Of a stretch of DNA of 23,551 nucleotides, positions 1 through 17,990 are shown one piece after another. The notes under the pieces are model-generated. The model was not told where the DNA came from. It was given only the letters and a program-made list of their open reading frames with translations, and did not search any database. The stretch's first letter is position 1. Each line of letters begins with the position of its first letter. Source of the DNA: a virus; IMG/VR virus record IMGVR_UViG_3300045431_000716, positions 1 to 23,551 of that record; one strand, given 5' to 3'. The translations under genes were made by a program, and so were the position numbers.

Positions 1-3000
1 TGATTGCAAATCGTTAGAGACAATAAAATCTAAAGATAGATAGTCTATCGATTTAGGAGGTTTTATATAAATTTTTCCTCTAATCGTTTGATTATCAATA
101 TCTGTTTGAGAAGTTTGATTAGCTTCGATTTCTATTTTATATTCCTCTAACCCAAATGCTGAACGAATCGGAGAAAGAATCTCTGTCGCGAGGGTCACGA
201 ATCTATCAACAATTACATCTCTATCCTGCTCAAAGACTAATTGTAAAGCAATATTTCTAATCTGTCGTCTAATTTGTATTAATAATCTTCTTACGTTTAT
301 TCTAGATAATGGCGATGATGAACGATTTAACGTTTTTTGACCTCCTATAAAAACTCCCGATCCTGTACCTCCAACATTGGATGGAGCATATAAAAAGTTG
401 ATATTTTTTGCATATAGAGAATCAATTTCAGATTTTGTTAACTTTACGACAGTAGAAAAAACGTTTGTTAGTCCTCCTCTAACATTTCCAGACGGAGACA
501 TCCAAGATTGTCCTATTAAATCATTTAATGAAACCCCTCCTAAAACAGCTACCGTAGGAGGAACTATAACTGAATCTATGCCATATGTACGTGCATCAAG
601 CTTTAACACAACATCTGGATAATATGCCGCGGCAAATGATGTATTTAAAAATCTATTATTAAAATTATCGATTGTTTTTTGCAGACTAGGTTTCAATTCA
701 TCGCTATATGCTATTATCTCTGACATGTTTATGTTTTCATCGTTGTCGCTAATTTGTTCAATATCCATTAGGTACAAAGAATCTAATCTATTTTCAGCAA
801 CGTCAGCTGCTTCATCAGTTATGATAGGCGCTCTTATTCCAGGTATGGCAAGAATTTGCATATCAACTGCAGTTGTATTTTTTACTATTTCTAATGCTTT
901 TAAATAAGCACCAGCATTTGCACCGGCATCTCTACCTCTATTAATGTCGTACGTGTCAGCGACGACTGCTTCATTTGTTAAATTAAACTCATTTTTTTCA
1001 AAAATATTAACTCCATCAAATCCTCCGCAAAGGATTGTTTGAAATGATAGAAAATTTCTGCTTGAAACATCTTCAAGGTCTTTAATGCTCACTCTACGAG
1101 TTTTTTCTTCATCATTTATTTGTATGTTACCGTTTCTAACATATTGAGCATATGCCCAATCTTCTTGTGAAGAATATCCATTAGATGACGTTAATATTTT
1201 TATATTTTCTATAGTAAATAAATTATTACAAAATCTATCTGCATCAATTATTCCAAGTTGTGGTGTATCAGGAGTTCCGTGATTATCTGAAACTGAAAAG
1301 TTAATATTTATTGTAGAATGATTTGGGAAATGTTTTGAAAAACTTAAAATAGACTCGTTTTTATATTGAAAATTATTTTGTTTTTCAACATCAGAAATAT
1401 GATCAAATTTAATTCCCCATCTTCTAACTGCTGATGCATTTTGAGAATTATTTCTATAGACGGAAATGTTGTTGGAAAGAGGAAGAGGATGAGTTATTAA
1501 ATTACTTAAAAAATTAGAATTTAATAATGCTGAAGCATCATGACTTGATAAAGATCCCATGATTGAAGATCCAGACGTAATAATATGGGGTATTCCTCTA
1601 AACCCAATAGGCAAAACTTCAATAGGAACTTCAGAATTTGAAACTTCTTTTGAAACTTCTACTCGAATATATTTTGAACTATTTTGATAACTTCCTTCAA
1701 CAATTAATTTTTGATTATCATCTGGTCTGTCGAAATCAAAATATGTATATGAATCTCCTATGACTTTTGAGATGTATCTATCAGATGATGGATTTAAATT
1801 TAAGTTAGGAAAAGATTCTAAAACCGGCATTACTTCATCAAAATCATCGATATCTCTTATCGACAAAGAAAAAGTTCCAAACTTGTATGTTGATCCATCT
1901 TTTATAGGAGTTATATCATGTATGATGATTTTTTGCTTTTTTGTTTGTTCTCCATCATGTAAAGAATGAAATTTAAATAAATTTATATACTTCCCATGGA
2001 TTTTTTGAGAAATTATCCAGGGGGTTGAAGCGTGAGAAAATCTATCTCTAAATCCTTCATAATTTGGAACTGTAGAACTGCCTATATCTCTTGATAAGGA
2101 TGACGTCAACAAAAACACGGATCGTTCAGTTGAAAAAACCCTTGAAGAATCGGTTGGTACTCCGGCACCTGAATTAACTACACCGGTGCCCGTTAACGTA
2201 GCTACTGCAGGATGAATATCCCAATTTGCAGCAAGATAATGGCCTGCTTGTTGAATTAACGAAGCAGTCATATTCAAGACTCTGGTTATATAAAAAGGTG
2301 ACTGCATATCTAAAGATGCAGTTATTACATTTGGATAATTAAAAGATCCTTTATGCCCATTTAACAAAAGAATAAATTGTTGTAATTGGGCACCGGTTCC
2401 TTCATTGAATAATTTTATCGCTCCAACAGTCGTTCCTTTTGCGGTCGAGTCAGATGCAATTTGCGTAGAAGTCGGGCAGGAAGAATCATGCCCACTTACT
2501 GATGCAGAAAGCCGTAAAATAACGCCAGAAGGCGCCATTAAAATGCCTCTTACGATAGGAACAGAAGTATTTATTCCAATTCCATTAATGCTTCCAGTAC
2601 CTTGAATACCTGCAGCGTTAAAAAAAGTCGATCCAGCAGACTCAGACATAAAACATCCTAAAAAGTATGTTCTTCCTAACGCGCCGCCAAAATTTGCATA
2701 TGGATTTGAACTCAAAGATCCAGACAGCGTCGCATGATCAGGCTGCTGTTCTCCTACTGTATAACCTGCATTAATTACGTCTCCTGCATTCGTTCCAGTT
2801 AATACTCTGTTTTTTCCGTTTCCAGTTCCTAAAACTCTAGTAAAAACTACAGACTTTTGATTACTGACCCATTCATTTACAGCTAAAGCACCGTAGTTAG
2901 TTAATCTATCATAAGAAGATATTCTAGATCCTGAAACATAAGGTATTCCAAATTTTTGCTGAAATTTTGCATTGGAATCAAAAAAAGTTGGAACGAATGC

Positions 3001-3120
3001 AGGTCCTGATAGTGACGTTCCTATGATTACAGCGGGAGGTATCGCTAAATTTAAAATAGGGGCAACTATAGTTCCTAAATCTTGTGCAGAAACTCCAGGA
3101 CTATTAAACTTGACTGTCAT
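1..3120 (-). CDS. gp18: Tail sheath protein, copy A (gp18-like; 3' end cut by window edge)
   Basis: Contractile tail sheath subunit of the T4 gp18 family, which stacks around the tail tube and contracts on infection. The frame is open from ATG at 3118-3120 to base 1 (1040 codons) with no stop; by comparison with copy B only a few residues are missing. The N-terminus has the sheath pattern SPGV...IGTSLSGPAFVP and FTRVLG. The C-terminal hallmark reads GGQKTLNRSSSPLSRINVRR, then a helical stretch ending LVFEQDR. It is plainly paralogous to copy B, sharing for example LAIPGIRAPI and VPNYEGFRDRF. T4 gp18 is 659 residues, so large extra domains are present. Its wobble bases are far more AT-rich than those of copies B and C. 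A terminator at 3183-3216 separates it from copy B, so it probably has its own promoter. The ribosome site is weak (AAGAAG, distant). Confidence 0.93.
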   Translation of the reverse strand, partial: MTVKFNSPGVSAQDLGTIVAPILNLAIPPAVIIGTSLSGPAFVPTFFDSNAKFQQKFGIPYVSGSRISSYDRLTNYGALAVNEWVSNQKSVVFTRVLGTGNGKNRVLTGTNAGDVINAGYTVGEQQPDHATLSGSLSSNPYANFGGALGRTYFLGCFMSESAGSTFFNAAGIQGTGSINGIGINTSVPIVRGILMAPSGVILRLSASVSGHDSSCPTSTQIASDSTAKGTTVGAIKLFNEGTGAQLQQFILLLNGHKGSFNYPNVITASLDMQSPFYITRVLNMTASLIQQAGHYLAANWDIHPAVATLTGTGVVNSGAGVPTDSSRVFSTERSVFLLTSSLSRDIGSSTVPNYEGFRDRFSHASTPWIISQKIHGKYINLFKFHSLHDGEQTKKQKIIIHDITPIKDGSTYKFGTFSLSIRDIDDFDEVMPVLESFPNLNLNPSSDRYISKVIGDSYTYFDFDRPDDNQKLIVEGSYQNSSKYIRVEVSKEVSNSEVPIEVLPIGFRGIPHIITSGSSIMGSLSSHDASALLNSNFLSNLITHPLPLSNNISVYRNNSQNASAVRRWGIKFDHISDVEKQNNFQYKNESILSFSKHFPNHSTININFSVSDNHGTPDTPQLGIIDADRFCNNLFTIENIKILTSSNGYSSQEDWAYAQYVRNGNIQINDEEKTRRVSIKDLEDVSSRNFLSFQTILCGGFDGVNIFEKNEFNLTNEAVVADTYDINRGRDAGANAGAYLKALEIVKNTTAVDMQILAIPGIRAPIITDEAADVAENRLDSLYLMDIEQISDNDENINMSEIIAYSDELKPSLQKTIDNFNNRFLNTSFAAAYYPDVVLKLDARTYGIDSVIVPPTVAVLGGVSLNDLIGQSWMSPSGNVRGGLTNVFSTVVKLTKSEIDSLYAKNINFLYAPSNVGGTGSGVFIGGQKTLNRSSSPLSRINVRRLLIQIRRQIRNIALQLVFEQDRDVIVDRFVTLATEILSPIRSAFGLEEYKIEIEANQTSQTDIDNQTIRGKIYIKPPKSIDYLSLDFIVSNDLQS

Positions 3121-3141
3121 TTAAACAAACTTCTTTGGTTC

Positions 3142-3149
3142 ATAACTAT
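3142..3149 (-). promoter_or_regulatory. Weak late-promoter-like octamer upstream of sheath A
   Basis: The minus strand reads ATAGTTAT here, one base from the ATACTTAT octamer found upstream of sheath B, sheath C and the fibre-like gene. It lies about 21 bases before the sheath A start and after the terminator at 3183-3216, where a new promoter would be needed. Assignment rests on position and similarity only. Confidence 0.3.
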
Positions 3150-3182
3150 CTTGATTTAAATCTATATTGCCTAGATTCAAAA

Positions 3183-3216
3183 CAAAAAATTAAGGGCCTC
3201 ATTAAGAAGCCCTTAA
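3183..3216 (-). terminator. Rho-independent terminator after sheath B
   Basis: On the minus strand an 8-bp perfect stem, TTAAGGGC / GCCCTTAA (3209-3216 with 3190-3197), encloses an 11-base loop and is followed by a T-rich tract. It lies about 55 bases past the sheath B stop and before the sheath A start, so it should end the sheath B transcript and uncouple sheath A. Confidence 0.85.
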
Positions 3217-3271
3217 AAATTCATTTGATATTTAAACGCTTGAATATATCAAACATTTTTATCAATTATTT

Positions 3272-6200
3272 TCACTGTACTTGTTGAAGGTTGTTGGCCA
3301 CAACGAAGTCCAAGGACACGAACTCGATCGTCTTGGTGGGTTGTAAGAAGATCTTACCACGAACAGTGTTGTTCTCAACGTCAGCTTGCGTTGTCGTTGA
3401 AGAATCAATGATGACGCGGAATCTCTCAAGACCTGCAAGCGCCTGAATTCTCTGTAGCCTTGGTGTTACTGCTGCAGTGAATCTTGCAAGGGTTGCTTCA
3501 CGATTCGGTTCAAAGATGATTGTTTGCGCAATTTCACGAACCTGACGACGAATGTCGATGAGAAGACGTCTTACGTTGATTCTATCAAGAGCAGATGCTG
3601 ATTGAAGCATCGTCTTTTGTCCCCATACAACTACTCCTCCTTTTGGATTTGTTCCGCCTCTTGTTGTAGTCGATGGAGCATACAACGGGTTGATGTCTTC
3701 ATCATATAGAGAATCAAGATCTGCATCTTTCAATTGAATGCTAGTCTCAAGCGTTGTTGGAAGTTCTCCTCTTGTTAATCCTGCTGGAGCAAACCATGGA
3801 TATCCAAGAGAATCATTCAATGATAAAGCTCCCATTACAGCGACTGAAGGAGGAACTATGACTGAGTTTGTTGGAAGAGAAGGATCTCTCATTAACAAGT
3901 CAGGGAAGTAAGCTGCTGCAAATGAAGTGTTAAGGTTTCTTGCCTTGTGTTGAGCAACTGTTTCAGTCACCGAAGGTTTGATATTTGACGTAATATTGAT
4001 CAAATTTCCATCCTTATCAACCTGTTCAATGTCCATGACGTACAGAGCATCGAAACGTTCTTCTGTCGCGCGGATTGCTTCATCAGTAACGATTGGAGCT
4101 CTGATGCCTGGTATAGCTAGAAGTTGAATATCGACATTGGTCGTATTCTTCATGACCTCTAAGGCCTTTAGGTATGCAGATACGTTAGGACCAGATGAAC
4201 GGCCACGATCTGCATCATCCATATCAGCTACAACTGCTGCGTTGTTGATCTCTGCTTCATCCTTATCGAAGATATTAACTCCATCGAATCCTCCCTGCAT
4301 GATGAACGAGAATTTAAGGAATTTTCTGTTTTGTGAATTGGACAAATCGCTTACTGCAACGGCTCTTGTCTTTGCTACGTCATCGGCAGCTATGTTTCCT
4401 TTTCTAACGTATGATGCGTCTTTCCAATCATTATTTTGTGCGACTGTTCCATTTGATCCAGTAACGATTTGGATGTTTTCAAGAGTGAAAATATTGTTAC
4501 AGAATCTATCAGCGTCGACTATTCCGTTTTGAACAGTGTCTGCTGCGCCTGTATTATCTCCCACTACAAAGTTAATGTTTGTAGTAGAATGACCAGGGAA
4601 ATGTTTGGTAAAGCTATTAAAAGATTTATCTTGTAGAACAGAGCTGTTTTGTTCAGATAGATTGGTTATGTGTTCAAACTTAACGCCCCAATGGTACCTG
4701 GAATTTACTTGCGTCTGTTGTCCTGTTCCATCATTCAAATGATTTCTAAAAGGAAGCGGTGGCTCAACTGTGTTTCTTGTGAACGTTGAAATCGATAGAG
4801 CAGAAGCATCTACTCCACCTAAAGCCGCAAGGGGTGCAGATCCAGATGTCACTAAATGTGTAATTCCTCTGAATCCCATTGGAAGAGCAGCAGGATCGAC
4901 TGCTTGTTCTGCGACTGCTGTCGATACTTCAACTCTAACGTATCTTGATCTTAGCTCATAATTGCCTTCGATGACCAATTTTTGAGCTGCATCATCTCTG
5001 TCAAAATCGTAGTATGCGTTAACGTCTCCAATAACCTTTGCGATGTATCTGTCAGAAGATGGATCTAAATTAATGCCTTCCCATCTTTCAAGAACTTTTT
5101 GATCAATGTCCGTATCAAACAAGCTTCTTATCGCAAGGCTAAATGATCCATACTTGTTAAGTGGATCTGAGGAAGGAGTTATGTTATAGATAGAGATCTT
5201 AACCTTGTTAGAGATTCCAGCTCCTGAATCAAGTGCGTGAAGTTTAAATAGATCTGTTGCAGAACCGCCGAACTTTTGTGAAATCACCCAAGACGATTTA
5301 GCATTTGTGAATCTATCTCTAAACCCTTCATAGTTTGGAACAGTAGAAGATCCAAGGTTTCTTGCCAGGGATGAAGTCAATAAGAAGACTGATCTTTCGC
5401 TTTGATTAACAGGAACAGCAGAAACAACTCCAACTCCTGTCACTGCAGCTAGAGTTGGATGAATATCCCAATGCGCTGCAAGGTAGTGACCTGCTTGTTG
5501 AAGCTTATAAGGGTCTGTATTAAGAACCTTGCTGATATAATTTGCTGCTGTTACATCGAAAGATGCGGTAAGAACGTTAGGATAAGATGAATCAGTTCCT
5601 TTATGACCGTTCAATAACAAGGTAAATTCTTGTTTTGAAGTAGCATCAGAACCTAACACAACTGATCCTAATGAAGTTCCTTTTGCATTAGCATCATCTC
5701 CTACCAATCCCGAACCAGGATTGCTTGAATCTAATCCTGCTACAGATGCTGATAATCTTAAAACGACCCCAGAAGGAGCCATTAACACACCTCTAACAAT
5801 TGGAACTGCTGAGGTAGCGCTGATTCCATTTGCGTTTCCTAAACCTTGAAGCCCTGCGCTGCTAAACACGTTTGCGCCGAGCGACTCCGACATGAAGCAA
5901 CCCAGAAAATACGTTCTTCCAGGATTACCTCCTGCATTTGCGTAAGTGTTTGATGACAAGGTTCCATCAGAAGCAGGTAATTCTTCCCCGACAGTAAATC
6001 CAGAGTTTGTTACATCACCAGCAGTTTGTCCGCTTAAGACTCTTTTCTTACCATCTCCAACGCCTAAGACCCTAAGATATGTAACAGCTGTGGCTCTTCT
6101 GAGCCATTCTGCTACAGCCATTGGGCCGAACTTCTTAGAATCACTTTCACCAAACTTTGCAAAGAAATCATTTAACGTTCCGTATGTTAAAGGAATAAAT

Positions 6201-6325
6201 GCCGGTCCTTTAACGGAAGTACCAATTATGCCTGCAGGAACACCCGTAGGTGATGTCTCAACTGGTCCTGTTAAATCAATCTCTCTTGTCGTTACCCCTG
6301 CGCTTCCAAATTTGAGCTGTGCCAT
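3272..6325 (-). CDS. gp18: Tail sheath protein, copy B (gp18-like)
   Basis: A complete 1017-residue contractile tail sheath protein of the T4 gp18 family. The N-terminal region has GVTTREIDLTGPV and GIIGTSVKGPAFIPLTYG, matching the family's conserved start, and AEWLRRATAVTYLRVLG. The conserved C-terminal core has VVWGQKTMLQSASALDRINV followed by RRLLIDIRRQVREIAQTIIF (about residues 885-925), the region that packs against the tube. The middle 600 or so residues are the variable protruding domains, longer than in T4. The start is ATG at 6323-6325, with GGAG about 10 bases upstream (TAGGAGCGAAAAATAAATG). An ATACTTAT octamer lies 27 bases upstream. A terminator follows. It is closer to copy A than to copy C. 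Function is firm; why three copies exist is unknown. Confidence 0.96.
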   Translation of the reverse strand: MAQLKFGSAGVTTREIDLTGPVETSPTGVPAGIIGTSVKGPAFIPLTYGTLNDFFAKFGESDSKKFGPMAVAEWLRRATAVTYLRVLGVGDGKKRVLSGQTAGDVTNSGFTVGEELPASDGTLSSNTYANAGGNPGRTYFLGCFMSESLGANVFSSAGLQGLGNANGISATSAVPIVRGVLMAPSGVVLRLSASVAGLDSSNPGSGLVGDDANAKGTSLGSVVLGSDATSKQEFTLLLNGHKGTDSSYPNVLTASFDVTAANYISKVLNTDPYKLQQAGHYLAAHWDIHPTLAAVTGVGVVSAVPVNQSERSVFLLTSSLARNLGSSTVPNYEGFRDRFTNAKSSWVISQKFGGSATDLFKLHALDSGAGISNKVKISIYNITPSSDPLNKYGSFSLAIRSLFDTDIDQKVLERWEGINLDPSSDRYIAKVIGDVNAYYDFDRDDAAQKLVIEGNYELRSRYVRVEVSTAVAEQAVDPAALPMGFRGITHLVTSGSAPLAALGGVDASALSISTFTRNTVEPPLPFRNHLNDGTGQQTQVNSRYHWGVKFEHITNLSEQNSSVLQDKSFNSFTKHFPGHSTTNINFVVGDNTGAADTVQNGIVDADRFCNNIFTLENIQIVTGSNGTVAQNNDWKDASYVRKGNIAADDVAKTRAVAVSDLSNSQNRKFLKFSFIMQGGFDGVNIFDKDEAEINNAAVVADMDDADRGRSSGPNVSAYLKALEVMKNTTNVDIQLLAIPGIRAPIVTDEAIRATEERFDALYVMDIEQVDKDGNLINITSNIKPSVTETVAQHKARNLNTSFAAAYFPDLLMRDPSLPTNSVIVPPSVAVMGALSLNDSLGYPWFAPAGLTRGELPTTLETSIQLKDADLDSLYDEDINPLYAPSTTTRGGTNPKGGVVVWGQKTMLQSASALDRINVRRLLIDIRRQVREIAQTIIFEPNREATLARFTAAVTPRLQRIQALAGLERFRVIIDSSTTTQADVENNTVRGKIFLQPTKTIEFVSLDFVVANNLQQVQ

Positions 6326-6352
6326 TTATTTTTCGCTCCTACAACTTGCTTG

Positions 6353-6360
6353 ATAAGTAT
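6353..6360 (-). promoter_or_regulatory. Candidate late promoter upstream of sheath B
   Basis: The minus strand reads GATACTTATCAAG, with the exact octamer ATACTTAT ending 27 bases before the sheath B ATG. The same octamer precedes sheath C and the fibre-like gene. By analogy with T4-type late promoters, which have a single -10-like element (TATAAATA) and little -35 need, it may be read by a phage sigma factor. That last step is inference. Confidence 0.55.
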
Positions 6361-6383
6361 CAGATTACATAAGAATTTTAGAA

Positions 6384-9300
6384 TCAAACGAACTGAACTC
6401 CTGCATTTGTGATGATGAAGTCAATTGCAATGAATTCGATAGCTCTTGTTGGAACAACAACGATTCTACCATTCAAGCGGTTTAAGTCAACATCCTCTTG
6501 CGTGTTATTGGTTTCATTCATTACAACTTGGTATGCTTCGATACCAGCTTGAGCTTGAATTAGACCCAATTGAAGAACAGAATCTGCAACGAATTTGTTT
6601 CTAACTGCAGGTGTGTTCTGTTCAAACACAATTCTGTTTGCTATGTTTATGATAAGTCTCTTCACTTCAAGAAGCAAACGACGAACGTTTACTCTATCGA
6701 GCGCTGACTTTCTTATTTGTAGTGTCTTTTGTCCGTAGATGACAAATCCCAATCTTGGGAATGTCGCGATTGGATTGATTCGAGCATCATACAATCTATC
6801 TCTATCAGAAACATTGAGTCTAACTTCAACGTTGTTGACGAAATCTAACGCTGCTCTATTAAATCCTGCTGGTGCAAACCATGGATATGCAACTCTATCA
6901 TTAAACCCTAGAGCTCCTAATGCTGCAACAGAAGCAGGAACCTTGACATAACGACTATTTGTTGTATCATTTACATAAACATTCGGGAAGTAAGTTGCAA
7001 TATAATTGTTGTCGAATGATCTAGCTTCGAATGTTGCAGCTGTGTTTTCTATGTTAATTCTATTTGTAGAATCATCATAGATGCGACCATCATTATCATC
7101 ATAGTTTGGAAGATCCATTACGTACATAGAAAGTCCATAATCTCTAACTTTCTTTGCTGCATAATTTGTAATGTAATCTTCACGAATTCCAGGAATTGCT
7201 AGCAAGTTAGTGTTAACTTGAAGCGGATCAGTCATAACATCGACTGCAGTAATATATGAATTTACAGCATTGTTATCGACGCCCGTTCCTGCAAGGTTTG
7301 TAAGCAAACCGGGTGATACAAACGTTGATGATGCTCCGCCGAGTGGAGTTTCAAATGAAGTAGCCTTATCATTCATTCTTGATGCAGCTGAATCAAGAAT
7401 ATTCAATCCATCGAATCCACCTTGCATAAAGGTTGTAAACTTAGCAAATGATGAATACTTGTTAAATTCGTAAGCCTCGCCATTCGACAACAAAGATGCG
7501 AATGTAATTCTATTACCTAGAACTGGATCGTTGACTGTATATGTCGTTGGATCTACCTTGGCATTTCTGATGTATGCAGCTTCTTTCATGTGTGAACGAA
7601 CAGTTCCAGTTAACCCTGCTATTGTTCCTGCTGAGAATGCGACCTTCGACAATGAGAACTTGTTATTGTTGAATGTATCTGCTCCTGAACCAGTTACCAA
7701 AGCGTCAAGTTTCTTTATTCCACCAAACTTAGTATAGCTCTCAAGAAGATGATTCTTAACTTCTGAAAGATTAGAATTAAGAGGAACATCATTTCTTTCA
7801 AACTTAACTCCCCAGTAGAATTGAGGAGATGCAACTTCTTGCGGGCCTGGATCACCGTCCCACGCTGGTGTAGTCATTGGACCCTTAGTTACTTTAAATC
7901 TGAATGGTACAGGAGGTAGTATAGATTGTGAAAGAATTCCCGTCGAGTCGATCGAGAACAATCCGGCTAATCTCTTTGCAGAAGTTGCTCCATCAGTTAA
8001 TGAATCATTGGTCTTCAATAATTCTGGTCCTCTAAACCCGAATGGAAGAGATTTTGCTGGAACCTTCTTATCCTCTACATCCTGTGAAATAACAACTCTA
8101 ACATACTTTGAAACATTTGCGTACTTTCCGCTCGTGATTATTCTTCTTTCTGAAAGTATGTCTTGATCAAAGTCGTAAGTTACCCTACGGTCACCAACAA
8201 CTTTTCCAATATAGTTGTCAGAATCAGGATCTAAAGAGCAATTTACAAATTCTTCTAAAACTGCAGGATTTAAATCTGTATCATTCCAATCGCGAATCTG
8301 TAAGTTAAATGTTCCATATTCGTAAGCTTCATTTTCAGAAACTTTAAGGCTTGCGATTGAAACCTTATAAAGGCTATTTGCATATGCTCCATCATCCAAT
8401 GATTCAACTTGGAAGAGATCATATTCTGTTTTGCCGAATGGCTGAGAAATAAAGTAAGAAGTTTTTGGAGAAGTATATCTTGTATCAAATGCTCCAAATG
8501 CTTTTCTAAACTCTGTGGTAGGTTCACCAGAAACATTACTTGTTAATGAAGAACCTGATAACACAGCGACATAATCATCATTAACGACTGATGCAACTTC
8601 ATCATCTACTGCAAAATCTGTATATAGAAGATGTTGGTATTGCTCAAATTTTTCTGGGTCTCTATTTAAGACTTTTCCGACGTAATCATCACTCGTCGGA
8701 TTCATCGACGCAGTATAGATTTTTACTCCAGGGAGCTTATCATCAAAAGCGAAAGAAGAACCAAGCGTAGAAGAAATAATTAATTTAAACTTACCACTCT
8801 TTACTTGAGCTGCATCGTCGACTGTCGTTGCACCAACAAATGATGCTGCAGTTTGTTGATTTCCGTCAAGAACCATCATTCTTGCACCGGAAGCCAACAT
8901 AACAACACCACGAACCAAGTTAACGTTTGTTGCACTTGTTCTTGAATCGTTGTCAGTAAACATTGGCATTCCATAAGCTTCATTGGTTTGAAGGGTATGA
9001 TCTGCAACCAAGAACTGTACGGCTCCAACGTGACGGCCTGCGGAATCATGCGAAGCCACAGAACCTTCAAGCTTAAATCCGGCGTTTTTTACTCTTCCAG
9101 TAAGAGATGTTGCGCTTATGTCTGTTGCGGTTTTATTCGCACCAGCGCCTAACACTCTCATATAAGTTAAGGCTGTTCGATTCTTTAAAAATTCGTTTAC
9201 TGCATAAGGACCAAATTTTTTAGGATCTAAGTTGCCAAAAATGTTAACGAACTCATTAAAATTAGCGACGGTCACAGGAACGAATGCTGGACCTTTATTC

Positions 9301-9410
9301 GCTGTTCCGATCACGCCTGCTGGAACACCTACTGGCCCTCCTCCAGGGGGCGCTTTTAATTCAATTTCTCTCTCAAAAAAACCAGGAGACCTAAAAACCT
9401 GCTCAGCCAT
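6384..9410 (-). CDS. gp18: Tail sheath protein, copy C (gp18-like)
   Basis: A complete 1008-residue tail sheath protein and the most diverged of the three copies. The N-terminus reads SPGFFEREIELKAPPGGGP followed by VGVPAGVIGTANKGPAFVPV; FGPYAVNEFLKNRTALTYMR follows, as in gp18. The C-terminal core has VIYGQKTLQIRKSALDRVNV, then RRLLLEVKRLIINIANRIVF, and the protein ends DFIITNAGVQFV, equivalent to DFVVANNLQQVQ in copy B. The ATG at 9408-9410 is preceded by AAGGAGCAAGGTA, a strong ribosome site. It lies directly after the gp15-like gene, where the T4 gene order would predict sheath after 15 apart from the missing terminase genes. It has its own ATACTTAT element and no visible terminator before copy B, so B could also be read from its transcript. 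Confidence 0.96.
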   Translation of the reverse strand: MAEQVFRSPGFFEREIELKAPPGGGPVGVPAGVIGTANKGPAFVPVTVANFNEFVNIFGNLDPKKFGPYAVNEFLKNRTALTYMRVLGAGANKTATDISATSLTGRVKNAGFKLEGSVASHDSAGRHVGAVQFLVADHTLQTNEAYGMPMFTDNDSRTSATNVNLVRGVVMLASGARMMVLDGNQQTAASFVGATTVDDAAQVKSGKFKLIISSTLGSSFAFDDKLPGVKIYTASMNPTSDDYVGKVLNRDPEKFEQYQHLLYTDFAVDDEVASVVNDDYVAVLSGSSLTSNVSGEPTTEFRKAFGAFDTRYTSPKTSYFISQPFGKTEYDLFQVESLDDGAYANSLYKVSIASLKVSENEAYEYGTFNLQIRDWNDTDLNPAVLEEFVNCSLDPDSDNYIGKVVGDRRVTYDFDQDILSERRIITSGKYANVSKYVRVVISQDVEDKKVPAKSLPFGFRGPELLKTNDSLTDGATSAKRLAGLFSIDSTGILSQSILPPVPFRFKVTKGPMTTPAWDGDPGPQEVASPQFYWGVKFERNDVPLNSNLSEVKNHLLESYTKFGGIKKLDALVTGSGADTFNNNKFSLSKVAFSAGTIAGLTGTVRSHMKEAAYIRNAKVDPTTYTVNDPVLGNRITFASLLSNGEAYEFNKYSSFAKFTTFMQGGFDGLNILDSAASRMNDKATSFETPLGGASSTFVSPGLLTNLAGTGVDNNAVNSYITAVDVMTDPLQVNTNLLAIPGIREDYITNYAAKKVRDYGLSMYVMDLPNYDDNDGRIYDDSTNRINIENTAATFEARSFDNNYIATYFPNVYVNDTTNSRYVKVPASVAALGALGFNDRVAYPWFAPAGFNRAALDFVNNVEVRLNVSDRDRLYDARINPIATFPRLGFVIYGQKTLQIRKSALDRVNVRRLLLEVKRLIINIANRIVFEQNTPAVRNKFVADSVLQLGLIQAQAGIEAYQVVMNETNNTQEDVDLNRLNGRIVVVPTRAIEFIAIDFIITNAGVQFV

Positions 9411-9444: not shown

Positions 9445-9452
9445 ATAAGTAT
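9445..9452 (-). promoter_or_regulatory. Candidate late promoter upstream of sheath C
   Basis: The minus strand reads AATACTTATAAGAGAAG, with the octamer ATACTTAT ending 34 bases before the sheath C ATG. The extended match AATACTTATAAG is identical to the one upstream of the plus-strand fibre-like gene. A long T-rich run lies immediately upstream on the minus strand and could assist polymerase binding. Confidence 0.6.
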
Positions 9453-9476: not shown

Positions 9477-10799
9477 TCAATCATCTTCGCCAGTAATATG
9501 ATAGGATAATCCTCCTAATAATGCATCTACAGTTAGCGGTGCAGGGGTCGATCCTACCTGAGAAGCAGGCCTAATTATTGATTCACCAGATGCTTGGTTT
9601 ACAGCATACACTCTTACATACCCGCCACTTGGCGTTTTTCTATAAACAGGTTCGAATTGATATGTTTGAGGAGTTCTTGCTTTTCTTGCAGGGTCATCAG
9701 ACAGCGTTGCATCTTGAGGATCATACAACAACGTTCCATTCGTGTTTCGTTGATCGTTTCTTCTATTTAAAGAATCTGCCAATGGAAGAGTCGGATCATC
9801 TGATCCAAGAAATGGATTCGTAACAGTCGATCCAACTTCATTGTTTATGACTCCTCCAAGAACATTTGTTTCAAATGAAACGATTGGAGAAGAAACATAC
9901 CTTTTTATAGGAATTCCTCCATTCGCATGTTGAGCTGCAAAGATATATGCTTTAACATTTACGGTAAATTTATATTTGATGATTCTTTCTTCCTGTCCTA
10001 ATTCATCTAGGTTTGATTCTGGATCATATGAATTGTTACTAACCGTCGCAATAAACCAATAACCTTTAGGCGTTTCTAACTTCCATGAATTTGCCTGAGG
10101 AAGAAACGAAGAAACAAGCTGTTCTAACAATTGGTTCATATGTTGAGTATATTGCGTCCACATCGTTACGTCATACGTAACGTTATAAAATTGTGGAGAT
10201 GGAACGACAATGGTTTCATAGATGTTATTGCTCTTTATGTCTGCAAGCCAAGCGCCGTCTTGCACAATTTGATCAGTTGAATTTTCTCCGATTGTTCTAT
10301 CTGTCAGCAGTTGATCATCCACATGTTCTAAAAAAGGATTGGTTGCAACGTTCTTTTGATTCTTTAGAAGAAACCTATTGATTAGATTTTGATATTCTCT
10401 ATCTGATTTATCCAATCTTCTTCTTATTACAATTTCTCCAGTTTGTTGATTAATACCTCGTCCAGCAATATCTGATGAAATATCTTGTGCAATTGATGTT
10501 CTAGAAATCGTCAATAAAGGAAGTATTAAAGAATTGTTTTTATCTCTTAAGGCTCTTTTTTTCTTTAATATAGCCCATTTTTCTCCTGTTGCAAAAATCA
10601 CAGGAACCTTTTTAAAATCTGAATTATCTCCACCTACCTGTAATTTAATTTCATTTTCAAACAATTTAAATAGAGACACGTCAACATCTTCTATGCTAAC
10701 AAAAGGTATTGTTATGTCAGCCGTGCCTTGATGAGTGTTTAAATTAATGCCTGATACACCAAATCTTGTTTTGCTATTAGAATTGAACCTAGTCGGCAT
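9477..10799 (-). CDS. gp15: gp15-like tail completion / sheath stabiliser protein
   Basis: In T4, gp15 forms a ring that caps the finished tail and joins it to the neck. The order of conserved blocks matches my memory of T4 gp15: an early helix (SLFKLFENEIKLQVGG), a VPVIFATGEKWAILKKK strand equivalent to the VPITYAS region, LILPLLTISRTSI equivalent to ILPRINLHL, then PQFYNVTYDVTMWTQYTQHM with a helix into QLVSSFLPQ, and finally RIIKYKFTVNVKAYIF. T4 gp15 is 272 residues; this protein is about 440, with an extra C-terminal tail. I chose ATG at 10799 because GAGGAG lies 5 bases before it; a GTG at 10805 is possible but would overlap the upstream stop. The start is 2 bases past the gp14-like stop, so the two are translationally coupled. 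Position between neck and sheath genes supports the call. Confidence 0.8.
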   Translation of the reverse strand: MPTRFNSNSKTRFGVSGINLNTHQGTADITIPFVSIEDVDVSLFKLFENEIKLQVGGDNSDFKKVPVIFATGEKWAILKKKRALRDKNNSLILPLLTISRTSIAQDISSDIAGRGINQQTGEIVIRRRLDKSDREYQNLINRFLLKNQKNVATNPFLEHVDDQLLTDRTIGENSTDQIVQDGAWLADIKSNNIYETIVVPSPQFYNVTYDVTMWTQYTQHMNQLLEQLVSSFLPQANSWKLETPKGYWFIATVSNNSYDPESNLDELGQEERIIKYKFTVNVKAYIFAAQHANGGIPIKRYVSSPIVSFETNVLGGVINNEVGSTVTNPFLGSDDPTLPLADSLNRRNDQRNTNGTLLYDPQDATLSDDPARKARTPQTYQFEPVYRKTPSGGYVRVYAVNQASGESIIRPASQVGSTPAPLTVDALLGGLSYHITGEDD

Positions 10800-10801
10800 A
10801 A

Positions 10802-11473
10802 TCACTCCTCATCGTAAAATGCGCTACCTACGCTGGTAGAATCACCAGCAGGGGATACTTGTTTTGGACCGGTCAATGGCTCTTCTAAGACTCCGTTCTT
10901 AACAAGATCTCTAACATCACCGGTCTCTTCTCCGTTAGCATCAGTTGCATAACCTCTTTGCTGAACGAATGTATCTTGAACTGCGTCGGCGTCGTTGTAC
11001 TTGATGTCTGTTGGACCATTCGTAAGGGCCTTGAACTGGCTTTCACGGACTCTGGTACCAGTCAAAGACACGCCATCTATGTTTTCTGCTTGGCCATAAA
11101 TGGTTCTCATGTATTTGTACTCAGTTATCTCATAAAAGATTGCTCCGAAAGAGAAATAATCGCCTATTGATGGATTAATTCCTTTTTCAATCATGTCTCT
11201 ATGCTGTATATAAACTTCAAGAATAAACTGGGCATCGATTCCAAACTTATTTATCTTGGTTTCAGTTTGAAATTCGCTGTTGACTAAAACATCAATGTTG
11301 ATTGGATTATCAAAAATCTTTTTCAAAGACTCATCATACACTTCATGAGATTTTGTCTTTGTCTCAGAGACAGGGTAATAATAGATCTTTTGTCCTATAA
11401 CGTCTTTTACAATTTCTTTTGTAATGTCAGAAATGAAATTTATTTCTCTTTTTGTAATGAAAAGCCTTGCCAT
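10802..11473 (-). CDS. gp14: gp14-like neck / head-completion protein
   Basis: A 223-residue protein most likely equivalent to T4 gp14 (256 residues), which with gp13 forms the neck that closes the filled head and accepts the tail. Visible features are an N-terminal helical start, KIYYYPVSETKTKSHEVYDE, a LYDEA-like helix typical of the family, and a beta-rich middle with INPSIGDYFSFGAIFYEITE, the GD...yEI pattern seen in head-closure proteins. The C-terminal 50 residues are acidic and low in complexity. The start is ATG at 11471-11473 with AAAGGATTAT before it. It sits between the gp13-like and gp15-like genes with gaps of 12 and 2 bases, as expected for an assembly operon. The call leans on synteny as well as sequence pattern. 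Confidence 0.7.
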   Translation of the reverse strand: MARLFITKREINFISDITKEIVKDVIGQKIYYYPVSETKTKSHEVYDESLKKIFDNPINIDVLVNSEFQTETKINKFGIDAQFILEVYIQHRDMIEKGINPSIGDYFSFGAIFYEITEYKYMRTIYGQAENIDGVSLTGTRVRESQFKALTNGPTDIKYNDADAVQDTFVQQRGYATDANGEETGDVRDLVKNGVLEEPLTGPKQVSPAGDSTSVGSAFYDEE

Positions 11474-11485
11474 ATAATCCTTTCA

Positions 11486-12673
11486 TCAGCCTATGACGAT
11501 GGACTTACCTAACGGCATTGGGATATATCTAAGCTGTTTTTGCATGTTTTCAGCGACCAAAGCATCTTGCTCAAGAAGCTTAGCATGAGTTAAATTTCCT
11601 AAGAATTCCTTCATTTGAGTTGTTAGCTTATCTTTGTCTTCTCTGCCTTGTGAAACTAATTCTCCACCATTTAGCGTTAGTTCAGCATTAGGAATTGGTA
11701 TTGAAGAAAACTTTGAACGAATTAACCCAAGCAATTCTTTGCATAATGCTAAAGTATATTGTCTAATCCATTGCTTGCCAGGTTGGTTTACCGTTGCAAA
11801 CGGTATGTTTGCAAACGGCATGTTATTTGGTCCTGATATTCCATAAATTGAATCATCAGCATATGCTGATGGGTTTAACGGATTATGAGGTTTCATTAGC
11901 TTTATGAAAAGTTTTCCTGTTTGTAGATCAGTGGAAGGTACAGGGTAAATTCGCAAGTTACTTCCTATTATTTCATAGGAATAATTTGATCTTCTAACTC
12001 TAAATGCCGTCTCTAGCATTCCTCTTCTTAAAACATCTTCGAATACTGGCAATACATAGAACACAGTCGAATTGACATAAGATTCATAGTTAAAGTTGGT
12101 CGCTAAGAAGTTGGTTATATTTGAAGCATTTAATAAGAATTGTTGCGACGCTAAAGGCTCTAAATGAAAGACTTCAACGACCCTTAGTTTTCCTTTCGAT
12201 CCAGAGGGTATTGTATCATAAACAACTTCTCCTGCATCATCGCCAGAAACAACCTTGACGTCTTTGTAAATATTATAATCTTGTTGCCCAGAAACCAATT
12301 CTACATATCCTAATGTAGCATCGTATGATCCACCGACATACGCTTCAGTTGCATAAGGCTCTGCCATCCTAAGAAGATATTCGACTGTTCTCTTTGCATA
12401 CCTATTTGTTAAATCAGTCGATCCTGTAGGCATGCCTAAAACGTTCGTTAAATCTGACGTTATTTTCATTTCATGGATCAAACGAGAATATTCACAACAT
12501 GCTTCTTCAAAACATGCCCATATTTCTTTTTTAGTCAATTCGACAGATAGAACATCGTCGCCTAATTTTCTTTTAACAAATAACACCATTGAATCAGCTT
12601 CAGTTTGGAATACTGCTTCTGCATCAAAGAAGCCAAACGGAGTTGGATTAATTGTATCTGCAAATGTCGTCAT
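11486..12673 (-). CDS. gp13: gp13-like neck protein
   Basis: A 395-residue protein most likely equivalent to the T4 gp13 neck protein (309 residues). The N-terminal block MVLFVKRKLGDDVLSVELTK followed by KEIWACFEEACCEYSRLI matches the pattern of gp13 and related connectors: a 'KRKLG.PVI.VELT..qi' segment, then a helix with an EA...Y motif. The middle is beta-rich (residues about 130-260), with YEIIGSNLRIYPVP, and the C-terminal third is helical with KDKLTTQMKEFLGNLTHAK. It is the first gene of the run 13-14-15-sheath. The ATG at 12671-12673 has TGAGGAAATG about 10 bases upstream. It faces the divergent 253-base control region. No exact ATACTTAT element precedes it; the nearest similar sequence is GTTCTTAT on the minus strand. 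Confidence 0.7.
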   Translation of the reverse strand: MTTFADTINPTPFGFFDAEAVFQTEADSMVLFVKRKLGDDVLSVELTKKEIWACFEEACCEYSRLIHEMKITSDLTNVLGMPTGSTDLTNRYAKRTVEYLLRMAEPYATEAYVGGSYDATLGYVELVSGQQDYNIYKDVKVVSGDDAGEVVYDTIPSGSKGKLRVVEVFHLEPLASQQFLLNASNITNFLATNFNYESYVNSTVFYVLPVFEDVLRRGMLETAFRVRRSNYSYEIIGSNLRIYPVPSTDLQTGKLFIKLMKPHNPLNPSAYADDSIYGISGPNNMPFANIPFATVNQPGKQWIRQYTLALCKELLGLIRSKFSSIPIPNAELTLNGGELVSQGREDKDKLTTQMKEFLGNLTHAKLLEQDALVAENMQKQLRYIPMPLGKSIVIG

Positions 12674-12851: not shown

Positions 12852-12859
12852 ATACTTAT
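12852..12859 (+). promoter_or_regulatory. Candidate late promoter of the fibre-like gene
   Basis: The plus strand reads GAATACTTATAAGTG, containing the exact octamer ATACTTAT, 67 bases before the ATG at 12927. The twelve bases AATACTTATAAG are identical to those upstream of sheath C on the other strand. This suggests co-regulation of the oppositely oriented fibre-like gene with the sheath genes. Confidence 0.6.
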
Positions 12860-12861
12860 AA

Positions 12862-12926: not shown

Positions 12927-15344
12927 ATGTCAATTTCAAAAATTCAACAAACTCAAATTAGGGGTTCGCTTTCTTTCGACGATGGGTTACCAGCAGGCGC
13001 TGACTTAGCTGGTAAGTCTACGGTGAAGGGCGACCTCGATGCGCTTCGTTCACAAATGAAGCGTATCATTGGTAAGGACGCATGGTATGCTGAACTAGAC
13101 GGTTTACAAGACCTTGCTGACATCTATGCAGCAGTTCATATGACCGGTTCCGACGCAGATTTCCAAGGCGAAATCTCCTCGGTTAGTCATGCCTCTATCG
13201 GTGGCGATCTCAGCGTGGCCGCTGCCGCCAGTATCGGCGGTGATTTAGGCGTTACAGGAGATTCTACGTTCGCGGGAGATGCGATTATTGCTGGTGCCGT
13301 CAACATCGGTGGCGGTTATGGATCCGGCGGCGTTTCTGTGGACATGGATGGTAACGTCTCCATGAACGGAAACCTCATTGTTGATGCCAACGTCACCCTC
13401 GGCAATGCGTCAACTGATCTCATCACGTTCAATGCCAAGGCCGCCGGCGAGCTTAACATGAATTCTCACAAGATCGTTGGTTTGGCTCAAGCTGGTGCAC
13501 CTGGTGACGCTCTCGCCTTTGGCATGGATGCTTTTGTCTCCGACTTGATCGTTACTGGTGGACACTTCACTGTTGAGGCAGACGGTGACACTAACATAGC
13601 AGGAACACTCGACGTCGGCGGAGCAGTAAACTTCTCCAGCACGCTACAAGCTGGCGCTACTTCGCTCGACGAGCTCGCTGTCTCAGGAACTTCAACATTA
13701 ACCGGTGCAGTAACAGCAGCAGCTGGTCTTACTGTTTCTTCCGGAGGAGCTTCTATCACAGGTGGAGCAGCAGTAACAGGAGACCTTACGGTTTCTGAAG
13801 ACGCTGCAATCATGGGTGATGTAGCAGTTACTGGCGATGCTGATTTTGCTGGCGATATGGCGGTTGTCGGTGAGATGGAAGTCACAGGAGCCGTCCAGCT
13901 TCTTAGCTCACTTGCGGTAGCAGGATCATCCACCCTTGCAGGACTCTCTGCGGGAGCATCAAACCTTTCATCTCTATCTGTATCAGGAAATTCAAGCCTT
14001 GCAGGAAACGCTGGAGTTGGTGGAGCGCTTAACGTTGCAGGATCATCCACTCTTGCAGGACTCTCTGCAGGAGCTTCCAGCCTTTCATCTTTAGCGGTAT
14101 CAGGAAATTCAAGCCTTGCAGGAAACGCTGGAGTTGGTGGAGCGCTTAACGTTGCAGGATCATCCACTCTTGCAGGACTCTCTGCAGGAGCATCAAACCT
14201 TTCATCTTTAGCGGTATCAGGAAATTCAACATTCGCCGGTGCAATCTCAGGCGGAAACGGATTAACTATTTCAGCCGGTTCAACAAGTGTGCAATCGCTC
14301 AGCGCCACGAGCGCTGCAGTCGGCGGCAACGCAAGCGTCGCCGGCAACCTCGGCGTCGGCGGAGGCGCAACCTTCTCCAGCACGCTACAAGCTGGCGCTA
14401 CTTCGGTCGTATCTCTCGCAGTCGCGAACGCAGCTGACTTCAACGGTGGAGTAACTGCAAATGCCGTCAGTATTGACGGAGACGTTGCACAACGCCTCTA
14501 CATCGTTGATGCTAACGGATCCATGAAGGATGAGTCTGCGCTCGTCTTCGACGGATCTGACCTTTCCATCGACGGTGGCCTCGTCGTCTCCGGTGACGCG
14601 CAGATTGATGGTGACCTTCTCGTCAAGGGCTCCTTCACCTACATTGAGACCGAGAACATGAGGGTCAAGGATTCGTTCATCTACCTTGCAACGGGATCTA
14701 ACGGAGCGCTTGACTCCGGTGTCGTTTTCAGCAAGGGTGCAGGCGCTGCGTATGACCTCGTCGTCGGACAAGATGGTGGCGCGGGTGAGCTCGTCTTCGC
14801 TCAGGTTGCCCACAATTCTTCCGGTGATCAACCAGCAGACCTCAACGCTGCAACACTCGTTCCGGCATGGATGTCTCAAACAAAGATCGGTGCGCAGGAA
14901 GGTTCGATGGTCGGTTCTATCAGCAAGTCCGGTGATGACTTCCTCGTCTCCTCTGTTGCTGCGTCGGAACTCTTGCTTCAATCAGCTGGTAACGATCCGA
15001 TCTCCTTCGCATCTGCAGCGCAAGCTCCAGACCCAAGCTTCTCAGCTACTACGATCGTCGGCATGCTCAACGAGCTACGCAGCGACCTCGACAGCGCTTC
15101 TGCGGGTGGAAACCTCTTGAAGCAAGCATTCTTGGGTACAGATGTCTCAGCTGGCGGCGTCCTAGACTTCTCCAGTCTCGGTTCGCTCTCTTCGGCAAAC
15201 CACAAGTTGGTCGACGTCTTCGTGAACGGCGTACTCATGGCCCCAGTCCACGACCTGCCCGGCATCACAACGACATCGGTCACCTTCGAACCTTCATATT
15301 CGTTCATTGCTGACGACGTCATCACTGTCATCATCCGTGGATGA
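12927..15344 (+). CDS. Repeat-rich fibre-like virion structural protein
   Basis: An 805-residue structural protein resembling the long tail-fibre or tail-associated proteins common in marine phages. After an N-terminal domain (residues 1-85, with a helical DLDALRSQMKRIIGKDAWYA block), residues about 90-530 are short beta-repeats of the GGDLSV.A.ASIGGDLGVTGD type. They include two full copies and one partial copy of a 39-residue unit (117 bp, 13917-14229). Next comes a block often seen in such phage fibres, with GDLLVKGSFTYIETENMRVK and DSFIYLATGSNGALDSGVVF. The last 75 residues form a small beta domain (VDVFVNGVLM). There is no signal peptide or enzymatic motif. It is GC-rich (58% in one hand-counted line at 14521) against AT-rich neighbours, runs opposite to the structural genes on its left, and has its own promoter and terminator. 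Host attachment is the likely role, by inference. Confidence 0.8.
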   Translation: MSISKIQQTQIRGSLSFDDGLPAGADLAGKSTVKGDLDALRSQMKRIIGKDAWYAELDGLQDLADIYAAVHMTGSDADFQGEISSVSHASIGGDLSVAAAASIGGDLGVTGDSTFAGDAIIAGAVNIGGGYGSGGVSVDMDGNVSMNGNLIVDANVTLGNASTDLITFNAKAAGELNMNSHKIVGLAQAGAPGDALAFGMDAFVSDLIVTGGHFTVEADGDTNIAGTLDVGGAVNFSSTLQAGATSLDELAVSGTSTLTGAVTAAAGLTVSSGGASITGGAAVTGDLTVSEDAAIMGDVAVTGDADFAGDMAVVGEMEVTGAVQLLSSLAVAGSSTLAGLSAGASNLSSLSVSGNSSLAGNAGVGGALNVAGSSTLAGLSAGASSLSSLAVSGNSSLAGNAGVGGALNVAGSSTLAGLSAGASNLSSLAVSGNSTFAGAISGGNGLTISAGSTSVQSLSATSAAVGGNASVAGNLGVGGGATFSSTLQAGATSVVSLAVANAADFNGGVTANAVSIDGDVAQRLYIVDANGSMKDESALVFDGSDLSIDGGLVVSGDAQIDGDLLVKGSFTYIETENMRVKDSFIYLATGSNGALDSGVVFSKGAGAAYDLVVGQDGGAGELVFAQVAHNSSGDQPADLNAATLVPAWMSQTKIGAQEGSMVGSISKSGDDFLVSSVAASELLLQSAGNDPISFASAAQAPDPSFSATTIVGMLNELRSDLDSASAGGNLLKQAFLGTDVSAGGVLDFSSLGSLSSANHKLVDVFVNGVLMAPVHDLPGITTTSVTFEPSYSFIADDVITVIIRG
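13631..14405 (+). repeat. Dispersed exact 34-bp repeat inside the fibre-like gene
   Basis: An identical 34-base segment, beginning CTTCTCCAGCACGCTACAAG, occurs at 13631-13664 and 14372-14405, 741 bases apart and in the same frame. It encodes the FSSTLQAGATS repeat element. Perfect nucleotide identity, beyond what the protein requires, points to recent duplication or gene conversion. Confidence 0.85.
13917..14229 (+). repeat. 117-bp tandem repeats in the fibre-like gene
   Basis: Units start at 13917, 14034 and 14151, exactly 117 bases apart; the third is cut short after about 79 bases. Units 2 and 3 are nearly identical over their shared length, and unit 1 differs by a few bases. Each full unit encodes 39 residues including VAGSSTLAGLSAGAS and VSGNSSLAGNAGVGGALN. 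The frame is kept because 117 is divisible by three, so gain or loss of units would change fibre length without breaking the gene. Confidence 0.9.
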
Positions 15345-15450: not shown

Positions 15451-16062
15451 ATGGACGAAAAAACAATTAAAACAAGACTAGATCTTATTCAAGAATTATT
15501 GTCAAACAAAACTGAGACATTCAATTCAATGACTGAAACATTGAAAAAAATAGATGGATATGCAGTTGGATCAAAAGAAACTGCTGACAAAATTGAGGAC
15601 TATATAAGAAATCAAAAGAACGAATTAAACAAGCTTGTAGAACAAAAAAAGCTTCAGGATGAAGTTGCAAAAATACTACTAGGCTTTTTTAATAACGCAG
15701 ACGCAACGGTGAGGTTAATTTCTAAAGAATCAGAAAAATTTCTTTATTTAAAACAAGGCGAAATCATTTTCTTAAAACAAGAAATTGAAAAATTATCTGT
15801 TGTAAAAGCTAAACATGAAGAAGCTCTATTACAAAGAGAAAAGCAAAAAGAAGAAGAGAAAAAAGAAGATCAAACACGACTTGAGAACAAAGATAAGCAA
15901 GAAAAAGAACAAACACGAATCAGGCCTGATCAAGACCCAAAAACAAGAACAGGAAGAGCTGCAATGGATCTTGTAGAACGAAGAAAAAAGGCTCGTGAAG
16001 CCTTAGAATTGAAAGAAGATAAATCACAAAAAAAGAGAGGCAGAAAACCTAGACAAAATTAA
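15451..16062 (+). CDS. Coiled-coil protein with basic tail, unknown function
   Basis: A 203-residue protein I do not recognise. Almost the whole length is predicted helix: heptad-like stretches at residues 1-75 and 90-140, then a highly charged Glu/Lys-rich segment (KQKEEEKKEDQTRLENKD), and a basic C-terminus KKRGRKPRQN. The RGRKP element resembles an AT-hook core (RGRP), so DNA contact is possible but not shown. There are no membrane segments or enzyme motifs. It is plus-strand, after the fibre-like gene's terminator, so it needs its own promoter; none is convincing, and no ribosome site is visible before the ATG at 15451 (upstream sequence TATTTTATATC). Its stop overlaps that of the convergent gene by 2 bases. 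A scaffold, chaperone or tail-assembly role would fit the shape, but this is a guess. Confidence 0.75.
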   Translation: MDEKTIKTRLDLIQELLSNKTETFNSMTETLKKIDGYAVGSKETADKIEDYIRNQKNELNKLVEQKKLQDEVAKILLGFFNNADATVRLISKESEKFLYLKQGEIIFLKQEIEKLSVVKAKHEEALLQREKQKEEEKKEDQTRLENKDKQEKEQTRIRPDQDPKTRTGRAAMDLVERRKKAREALELKEDKSQKKRGRKPRQN

Positions 16063-16481
16063 CCAGTAACTCTAGAATAAGTTACAAGGACTTTAGATTT
16101 TGGAGGAGGAGCCCAAAGAAAAGTTATCATCTTTCCTGCTATTGTGTAATCAGCAATTGTTCCATTACGTTCCTTTAAAACGCCGTTAACGAACACCAAC
16201 ATTTTTGAATTATCAAGAGGCGTATATTGCAATTCAAAAGAAACGTTTGATCCATCTGTAACTCCAGATGGAGTTTCATTCCATACGATGTTGTCTGCGT
16301 TTTGAACAAGCTGCGTAACGTTTTGATTCAAGGTCGTAACTTGTGTTAAGGCATTAAAAATGTTAATCATTTCCGACTCTGTTGCGACATCTCTATAAAC
16401 TGGTCTAGTCCTATAATAAGAATATACTTTTCTAACTCGTGATATATCTCTTCTAGTGGCCATGACTAGATTAATTATCAT
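16059..16481 (-). CDS. Small virion-associated protein with fibre-type beta domain
   Basis: A 140-residue protein. After a basic N-terminus and a helical middle (residues about 30-65), the C-terminal 75 residues form a beta domain of a type recurrent in phage tail and fibre proteins: WNETPSGVTDGSNVSFELQY, then MLVFVNGVLKE, DYTIAGKMITFLWAPPPKSK and a final VLVTYSRV. The 'vNGvl' strand-turn is also present in the C-terminal domain of the fibre-like protein encoded at 12927-15344. It follows the peptidoglycan hydrolase gene by 22 bases on the same strand and likely shares its transcript. Two starts are possible: ATG at 16481 (used here) or ATG at 16463 (MATRRDISRV); neither has a clear ribosome site. 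A minor tail or baseplate-associated role is likely by inference. Confidence 0.75.
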   Translation of the reverse strand: MIINLVMATRRDISRVRKVYSYYRTRPVYRDVATESEMINIFNALTQVTTLNQNVTQLVQNADNIVWNETPSGVTDGSNVSFELQYTPLDNSKMLVFVNGVLKERNGTIADYTIAGKMITFLWAPPPKSKVLVTYSRVTG

Positions 16482-16503
16482 CTACAATAAAATAGATGAC
16501 TCA

Positions 16504-17708: not shown

Positions 17709-17990
17709 TTATATCTTTGAAAGCTCTTGTTGCGCTTGCATTAACGCTGTTTTTATTATTCCTTTATTTGCGCCTAATTTTTCTCCAAGACCTGAAGATT
17801 TAATTGCGCTAATTATTAAATCTGCAAGCCCGCGGGCATCTTTAACTTTTCCTGCTTTATTTTCAAATGAAGAAATTGTAGTCGCTTGACCTGCAGAAGC
17901 AGCAGCTTTTTCTCCTGCAGTTTCTGCTTCAACTAAGTTTGAAATTTCTTTTAAAATAATTCTTCGAAGTTGTGATTCAGTTATACGCAT
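17709..17990 (-). CDS. Small protein with N-terminal ITESQLRRII motif (93 aa)
   Basis: An unrecognised 93-residue protein. It opens MRITESQLRRIILKEISNL, an amphipathic basic helix of a kind I associate with proteins of marine T4-like phages. Alanine- and glycine-rich residues follow (GEKAAASAGQA), then two helices (LADLIISAIKSSGLGEKLGA; IIKTALMQAQQELSKI). The opening motif resembles INESTLRTLLREIS at the C-terminus of the 807-residue protein encoded at 19329-21752. Because it contains L-K-E, a possible (L/I)-x-E cleavage site for a T4 gp21-type prohead protease, a head-targeting propeptide is conceivable; that is inference. ATG at 17990 has AGAGG 5 bases upstream. It is likely first or second in the run leading to the hydrolase. 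Confidence 0.75.
   Translation of the reverse strand: MRITESQLRRIILKEISNLVEAETAGEKAAASAGQATTISSFENKAGKVKDARGLADLIISAIKSSGLGEKLGANKGIIKTALMQAQQELSKI

Follow-up and report, generated by a model that had tools for sequence, protein, structure and literature searches.

Three consecutive predicted tail sheath paralogues in a large T4-like phage and a possible division of labour among them

Introduction

The contractile sheaths described so far mostly consist of a single polymerised protein. The viral DNA analysed here, a stretch of 23,551 nucleotides referred to below as the window, contains three consecutive genes that each appear to encode a tail sheath protein, and this raises the question of what a single phage would do with three of them. 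Within the open-access literature searched, we found no phage reported to have three sheath paralogues. We asked whether the three copies are genuine sheath genes, how far they are kept in relatives, how they arose and in which respects they differ.

The sheath genes and their neighbourhood

The following features were annotated in the window.

11486..12673, minus strand: head-tail adaptor (Ad2-like), predicted from phrog_211 (E 2.9e-9)
10802..11473, minus strand: protein at the gp14 position of the neck, named by position only; its place is kept in relatives
9477..10805, minus strand: gp15-type tail sheath terminator (stabiliser), predicted from PF16724 (E 9.4e-15) and phrog_227
9445..9451, minus strand: TA[CG]TTAT promoter-like motif upstream of S1, in 36/38 clade loci
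6384..9410, minus strand: S1, tail sheath paralogue 1, the first transcribed of the three; 1008 aa, PHROG match and AF2 model
6353..6359, minus strand: TA[CG]TTAT promoter-like motif upstream of S2, in 25/35 clade loci
3272..6325, minus strand: S2, tail sheath paralogue 2; 1017 aa, PHROG match and 37% identity to S1
3184..3216, minus strand: terminator-like hairpin and T run in the S2-S3 gap; 11-bp stem, -16.8 kcal/mol
3142..3148, minus strand: TA[CG]TTAT promoter-like motif upstream of S3, in 22/22 clade loci
1..3120, minus strand: S3, tail sheath paralogue 3, sister of S2 with a relaxed core; 1040 of 1042 aa, assigned by PHROG, AF2, trees and constraint

The order of transcription on the minus strand is adaptor, protein at the gp14 place, gp15-type terminator, S1, S2 and S3. 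No family match was found in the Pfam or PHROG searches for the product at the gp14 position. As expected of the T4 superfamily, the gp15 and gp18 types are both found in the window, and the tube is recognised in relatives by place and sequence. A relative with a 211-kb contig (G001) encodes a T4-type terminase, portal, major head protein and DNA polymerase as well as a ribonucleotide reductase, and the closest match of its portal is the one of Microcystis phage Mel-JY01 (40%). Together these genes mark the window as a piece of the neck and tail module of a large phage of the T4 superfamily.

The earlier note on this DNA had described three consecutive, head-to-tail sheath genes of about 1000 codons, and frames of 1008, 1017 and 1040 aa do lie in that arrangement. 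What it called copy A is S3, the third in transcription order and the odd one out. Its statement that all three are full length, with copy A cut at the window edge alone, holds as well, since comparison with the near-identical contig L004 reveals that S3 loses the residues 'EI' and the stop codon and nothing more. The INVRR(L)L signature it had read in all three frames is present as VNVRRLLL in S1 and as INVRRLLI in both S2 and S3.

All three proteins match the PHROG family phrog_23 'tail sheath' (E-values of 1e-52 for S1, 1e-50 for S2 and 2e-34 for S3), and the Pfam sheath domains match them weakly, mostly under the curated cut-off. AlphaFold models of S1 (pLDDT 85, pTM 0.84) and S3 (pLDDT 82, pTM 0.83), built from alignments of window and IMG/VR sequences, both have T4 gp18 (9mkb) as their best PDB match, with E-values of 3.5e-17 and 7.9e-16 respectively, and both show the gp18-like fold, namely an N- and C-terminal core with inserted outer domains. 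Over nearly the full length, S2 is 37% and S3 31-32% identical to S1. Chance is excluded by the E-values, the open frames of about 1000 codons, dN/dS values well below 1 and the same gene order in many contigs. By sequence and, for S1 and S3, by predicted structure as well, all three are tail sheath proteins of the gp18 type.

Conservation of the array in environmental relatives

A first scan of environmental viral contigs (IMG/VR) returned 80 relatives and a second, profile-based scan returned 79 loci that partly overlap the first set. The arrays with both ends in view comprise 49 loci with S1-S2 and 17 loci with S1-S2-S3, always in this order. Not all of these loci are independent, since a number of them come from overlapping parts of a single contig or from near-identical contigs. 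Where the contig extends that far, the array is preceded by gp15 and followed by a single gp19-type tube gene. The lack of full-length homologs in relatives, which the earlier note would have read as a sign of decay, is not what we observed, as full-length copies occur in both the 17 three-sheath and the 49 two-sheath arrays.

Within the three-sheath clade, S3 is present in 22 of the 23 loci that extend beyond S2. The exception (L123) is judged to be a two-sheath locus that was pulled into this clade by a short S1 fragment, and S3 is kept in all 22 usable loci. The larger contigs (63-309 kb), including three-copy contigs of 204-278 kb, carry no extra sheath copies elsewhere. On the evidence of these arrays, S1-S2 pairs are the rule across a phage group much wider than the three-sheath clade, a group of large, T4-like phages known from environmental DNA alone.

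Two frames in this collection are split into two overlapping frames, the third sheath frame of L158 (1100-3914) and the first sheath frame of L115 (3636-6727), through either sequencing error or real damage. Long tails were also considered as the origin of the extra sheath genes. This was rejected, as tape-measure proteins (putative, named by place alone) of 1373-1740 aa in three-sheath phages and 626-1809 aa in two-sheath phages have no clear link with sheath number.

Duplication history

The sheath phylogeny proposed in the earlier note for dating the duplications was run as one tree of 153 sheath sequences and one mixture-model tree of 49, and it places the duplications in two separate steps. 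S1 and S3 each form one clade in both trees. S3 joins the S2 of three-sheath phages with full support, the S2 of two-sheath phages falling outside in both trees, and the S1 tree alone likewise unites the three-sheath phages. Because S3 is nested with the three-sheath S2, the duplication that separated S1 from S2 is the older one and common to the whole group, and the one that produced S3 from S2 followed later in one clade. Gene conversion between S2 and S3 was rejected as the source of their alike outer domains, since pairs from the same genome are no more similar than pairs from different genomes.

In the 484-kb uncultured phage record LR756508.1 (11881-17859) there are two sheath genes, each about 825 codons long, which the trees place outside the S1/S2 duplication. 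They possibly stem from a separate duplication, a placement made unsure by long branches.

Constraint on the three copies

Compared with the nearest differing relative (L006), dN/dS was found to be 0.03 for S1, 0.04 for S2 and 0.12 for S3, with dS near 1. Values for S3 range from 0.12 to 0.24, which indicates purifying selection and is approximate, dS being near or above 1. The copies differ in where change is tolerated. We took S1 residues 1-90 and 655-1008 as the core and everything else as the outer part, a split made from sequence patterns whose exact bounds are our choice. Over 116 genome pairs, which share genomes, the median core/outer dN ratio is 0.47 (range 0.19-0.72) for S1, 0.41 (0.20-0.61) for S2 and 1.38 (1.01-1.61) for S3, and the range of S3 does not overlap those of S1 and S2. 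The rate of S3 relative to S2 is raised about 5.6-fold in the core and 1.8-fold in the outer part.

Within-set identity follows the same lines. For residues 121-320, bounds slightly different from those of the dN analysis, it is about equal in S3, S1 and S2, whereas over the first 25 and the last 30 residues S3 falls far below the other two; the C-terminal arm does not vary within S1 or within S2 but does so in S3. Of the sites invariant across S1 and S2, S3 retains 79-88% in the core segments past the first 25 residues, and the smallest share in the N-terminal arm. The substitution patterns indicate that the inner cores of S1 and S2 are strongly constrained and that this constraint is inverted in S3. 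The copies pass every sequence test of function that we ran, and by these tests they are not decaying duplicates.

Signs of expression

Codon adaptation in G001 was measured against the major capsid and tube genes and ranked among its open frames, which places S1 at the 89th, S2 at the 95th, S3 at the 42nd and gp15 at the 36th percentile. With the own tube gene of each locus as reference, codon adaptation lies above that of gp15 for S1 and S2 in 11 of 11 loci and for S3 in 5 of 11. In codon use, S1 and S2 look like abundant virion proteins and S3 looks ordinary.

Transcription signals also differ along the array. A terminator-like hairpin is found in the S2-S3 gap in all 22 loci, in the S1-S2 gap in none of 38 and in 3 of 59 coding stretches that served as control, with wobble pairs and longer loops allowed in the scan. 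The motif TA[CG]TTAT occurs at most 60 nt from the gene start in 22 of 22 loci for S3, 36 of 38 for S1 and 25 of 35 for S2. It is enriched upstream of genes in G001 and absent upstream of the G001 capsid gene, for which reason we call it promoter-like only. Protein amount is reflected only indirectly by codon use and transcription signals, and these loci are related, so that their counts are not independent trials.

The T4-type TATAAATA late promoter was tried and has no exact match within the window, where TA[CG]TTAT was found instead. A palindromic ACTTATAAGT-like stretch lies at 12853-12860, between the adaptor gene and a divergent gene of 805 aa, and reads TA[CG]TTAT on the plus strand; it could serve as a signal for both genes.

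Comparison with known systems

Pseudomonas phage PaBG encodes two sheath paralogues from a gene duplication, gp76 and gp213, which are 38% identical and each gave a protein band in virions (PMC7412058). Two sheath proteins have also been noted in some other phage genomes (PMC9230969). Both PaBG sheath places are recovered by our S2 search. The present phage resembles PaBG in encoding at least two diverged sheath paralogues in one genome. It differs in that the PaBG sheath genes have about 550 codons, are unlinked by gene number, number two only and belong to a separate phage group.

Several sheath proteins are also found in eCIS-type systems, for which an ordered alternation of layers is stated (PMC9230969; PMC8894135). 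AFP (Afp2/3/4) and PVC (Pvc2/3/4) are alike to the present case in having three paralogous sheath proteins per machine, although theirs are of about 350-450 residues, lack the long outer domains and belong to machines with no phage head; the likeness does not imply a copy-by-copy relation between the two paralogue sets. A headless machine is not what is encoded here, as neck genes are present in the window and a terminase, portal and major head protein in G001. PDB entries of the AFP sheath contain Afp2 and Afp3, whereas Afp4 is confined to 6rao (baseplate) and 6rgl; Pvc2 is likewise found in sheath entries, with Pvc3 and Pvc4 confined to 6j0n, a baseplate entry.

The likeness to T4 lies in gp18 as the best structural match of S1 and S3, in the gp15-type terminator and in the gp19-type tube of relatives, whereas T4 has one sheath protein, of 659 residues. 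Among annotated phages, the nearest sheath and portal sequences are those of Microcystis phage Mel-JY01, Rhodothermus phage RM378 and LR756508.1. Mel-JY01 and RM378 have one sheath gene each in the region read and LR756508.1 has two.

A possible division of labour

We see about an even chance that the sheath is made from several paralogues with different jobs, S1 and S2 forming the trunk and S3 being a scarce special subunit. S1 and S2 would together build the trunk around a single kind of tube, arranged as alternating layers or at fixed positions; a mixed trunk is favoured by the order and adjacency of S1 and S2 in all complete arrays and by the one tube gene. S3 would be made in a smaller amount and fill a few special places, most likely as a ring at one sheath end, as Afp4 may do among Afp2/3/4. 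At a sheath end it would need fewer core contacts, with its S2-like outer domains still packed. A distinct role for S3 is favoured by its core/outer dN ratio of 1.38, its codon percentile (42nd), the hairpin and motif in 22 of 22 loci and the two-step history, with the distribution of the AFP and PVC sheath proteins over PDB entries as a parallel, and its retention of most S1/S2-invariant sites is a point against this, as it also fits an ordinary sheath subunit. A more definite version, to which we give somewhat less than even weight, is a fixed division of labour in which two co-major paralogues are patterned along the trunk and a separately transcribed third starts or ends the sheath, with a stepwise origin, in a widespread group of large phages, that parallels AFP and PVC.

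It is unlikely that all three are bulk subunits mixed along the tail, with S3 just evolving fast because, for example, it meets host surface or defence factors. The three intact, full-length gp18-type proteins with conserved sheath motifs and the purifying selection on S3 agree with such a tail, but it is the core of S3 that is accelerated and not its exposed outer domains, whereas contact with host factors should give the opposite pattern, and S3 resembles gp15 in codon use. S3 might instead stand outside the sheath rings, helping assembly, regulating sheath polymerisation or decorating a sheath formed by S1 and S2. Its relaxed core and terminal arms, retained outer domains and separate transcription signals would suit this role; we nevertheless regard it as quite unlikely, for S3 has lost neither the fold nor the length of a sheath protein and retains most S1/S2-invariant sites.

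The earlier note had offered a mixed-subunit sheath, segments of differing composition or alternative sheaths for different conditions. The former two are favoured in combination, given the constant S1-S2 order, the major-like character of both and the scarce-like character of S3. That one sheath is used at a time according to host or conditions is very unlikely: each gene in the window does have a promoter-like motif before it, but the motif is of the same kind for all three, no invertible segment or switch was noticed in passing, and S1 and S2 always co-occur in the same order and both look highly expressed. Decay of S3, or of all the extra copies, is highly improbable. S3 is the most variable copy and its frame is broken in one contig (L158), and against this stand its dN/dS of 0.12-0.24 (approximate, with dS near or above 1), its conserved control signals and its presence in 22 of 22 usable clade loci.

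In the present case two sheath paralogues are kept throughout a broad phage group, and three in one clade, with differences in constraint, codon use and transcription signals. Phages with one sheath gene (Mel-JY01), with two and with three are available for comparison and the order of the duplications can be read from the tree, so that the origin of position-specific sheath subunits becomes testable. If S3 is indeed an end ring, phages would have arrived at the layout of eCIS independently.

Other genes near the array

The 805-aa gene (12927-15344, plus strand) is rich in repeats and lies on the strand opposite to the sheath genes, with a G+C content of 52-55% against 35-40% around it. The codon adaptation of its counterpart in G001 equals the level of the major capsid gene, a rough figure as the reference gene set is shared, and this counterpart has a weak Bactofilin match. 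The product is possibly an abundant fibre or decoration protein.

Frames that start with zinc-finger-like CxxC motifs were observed in L004 (13703-15358, minus strand, and 15934-16857, plus strand), and similar ones in L010, L017 and L078. In many relatives such frames follow S3 or S2 as well as the tube gene, frequently on the opposite strand; they have no clear Pfam match and look like homing-type insertions.

Finally, the gene at 17709-17990 (minus strand) and genes after S2 in L042, L044, L051 and L081 encode small proteins that are otherwise unlike each other and share a similar start, such as MRITESQLRRIILKE or MKITQKQLRQIIRE, which is perhaps a targeting sequence for the virion.
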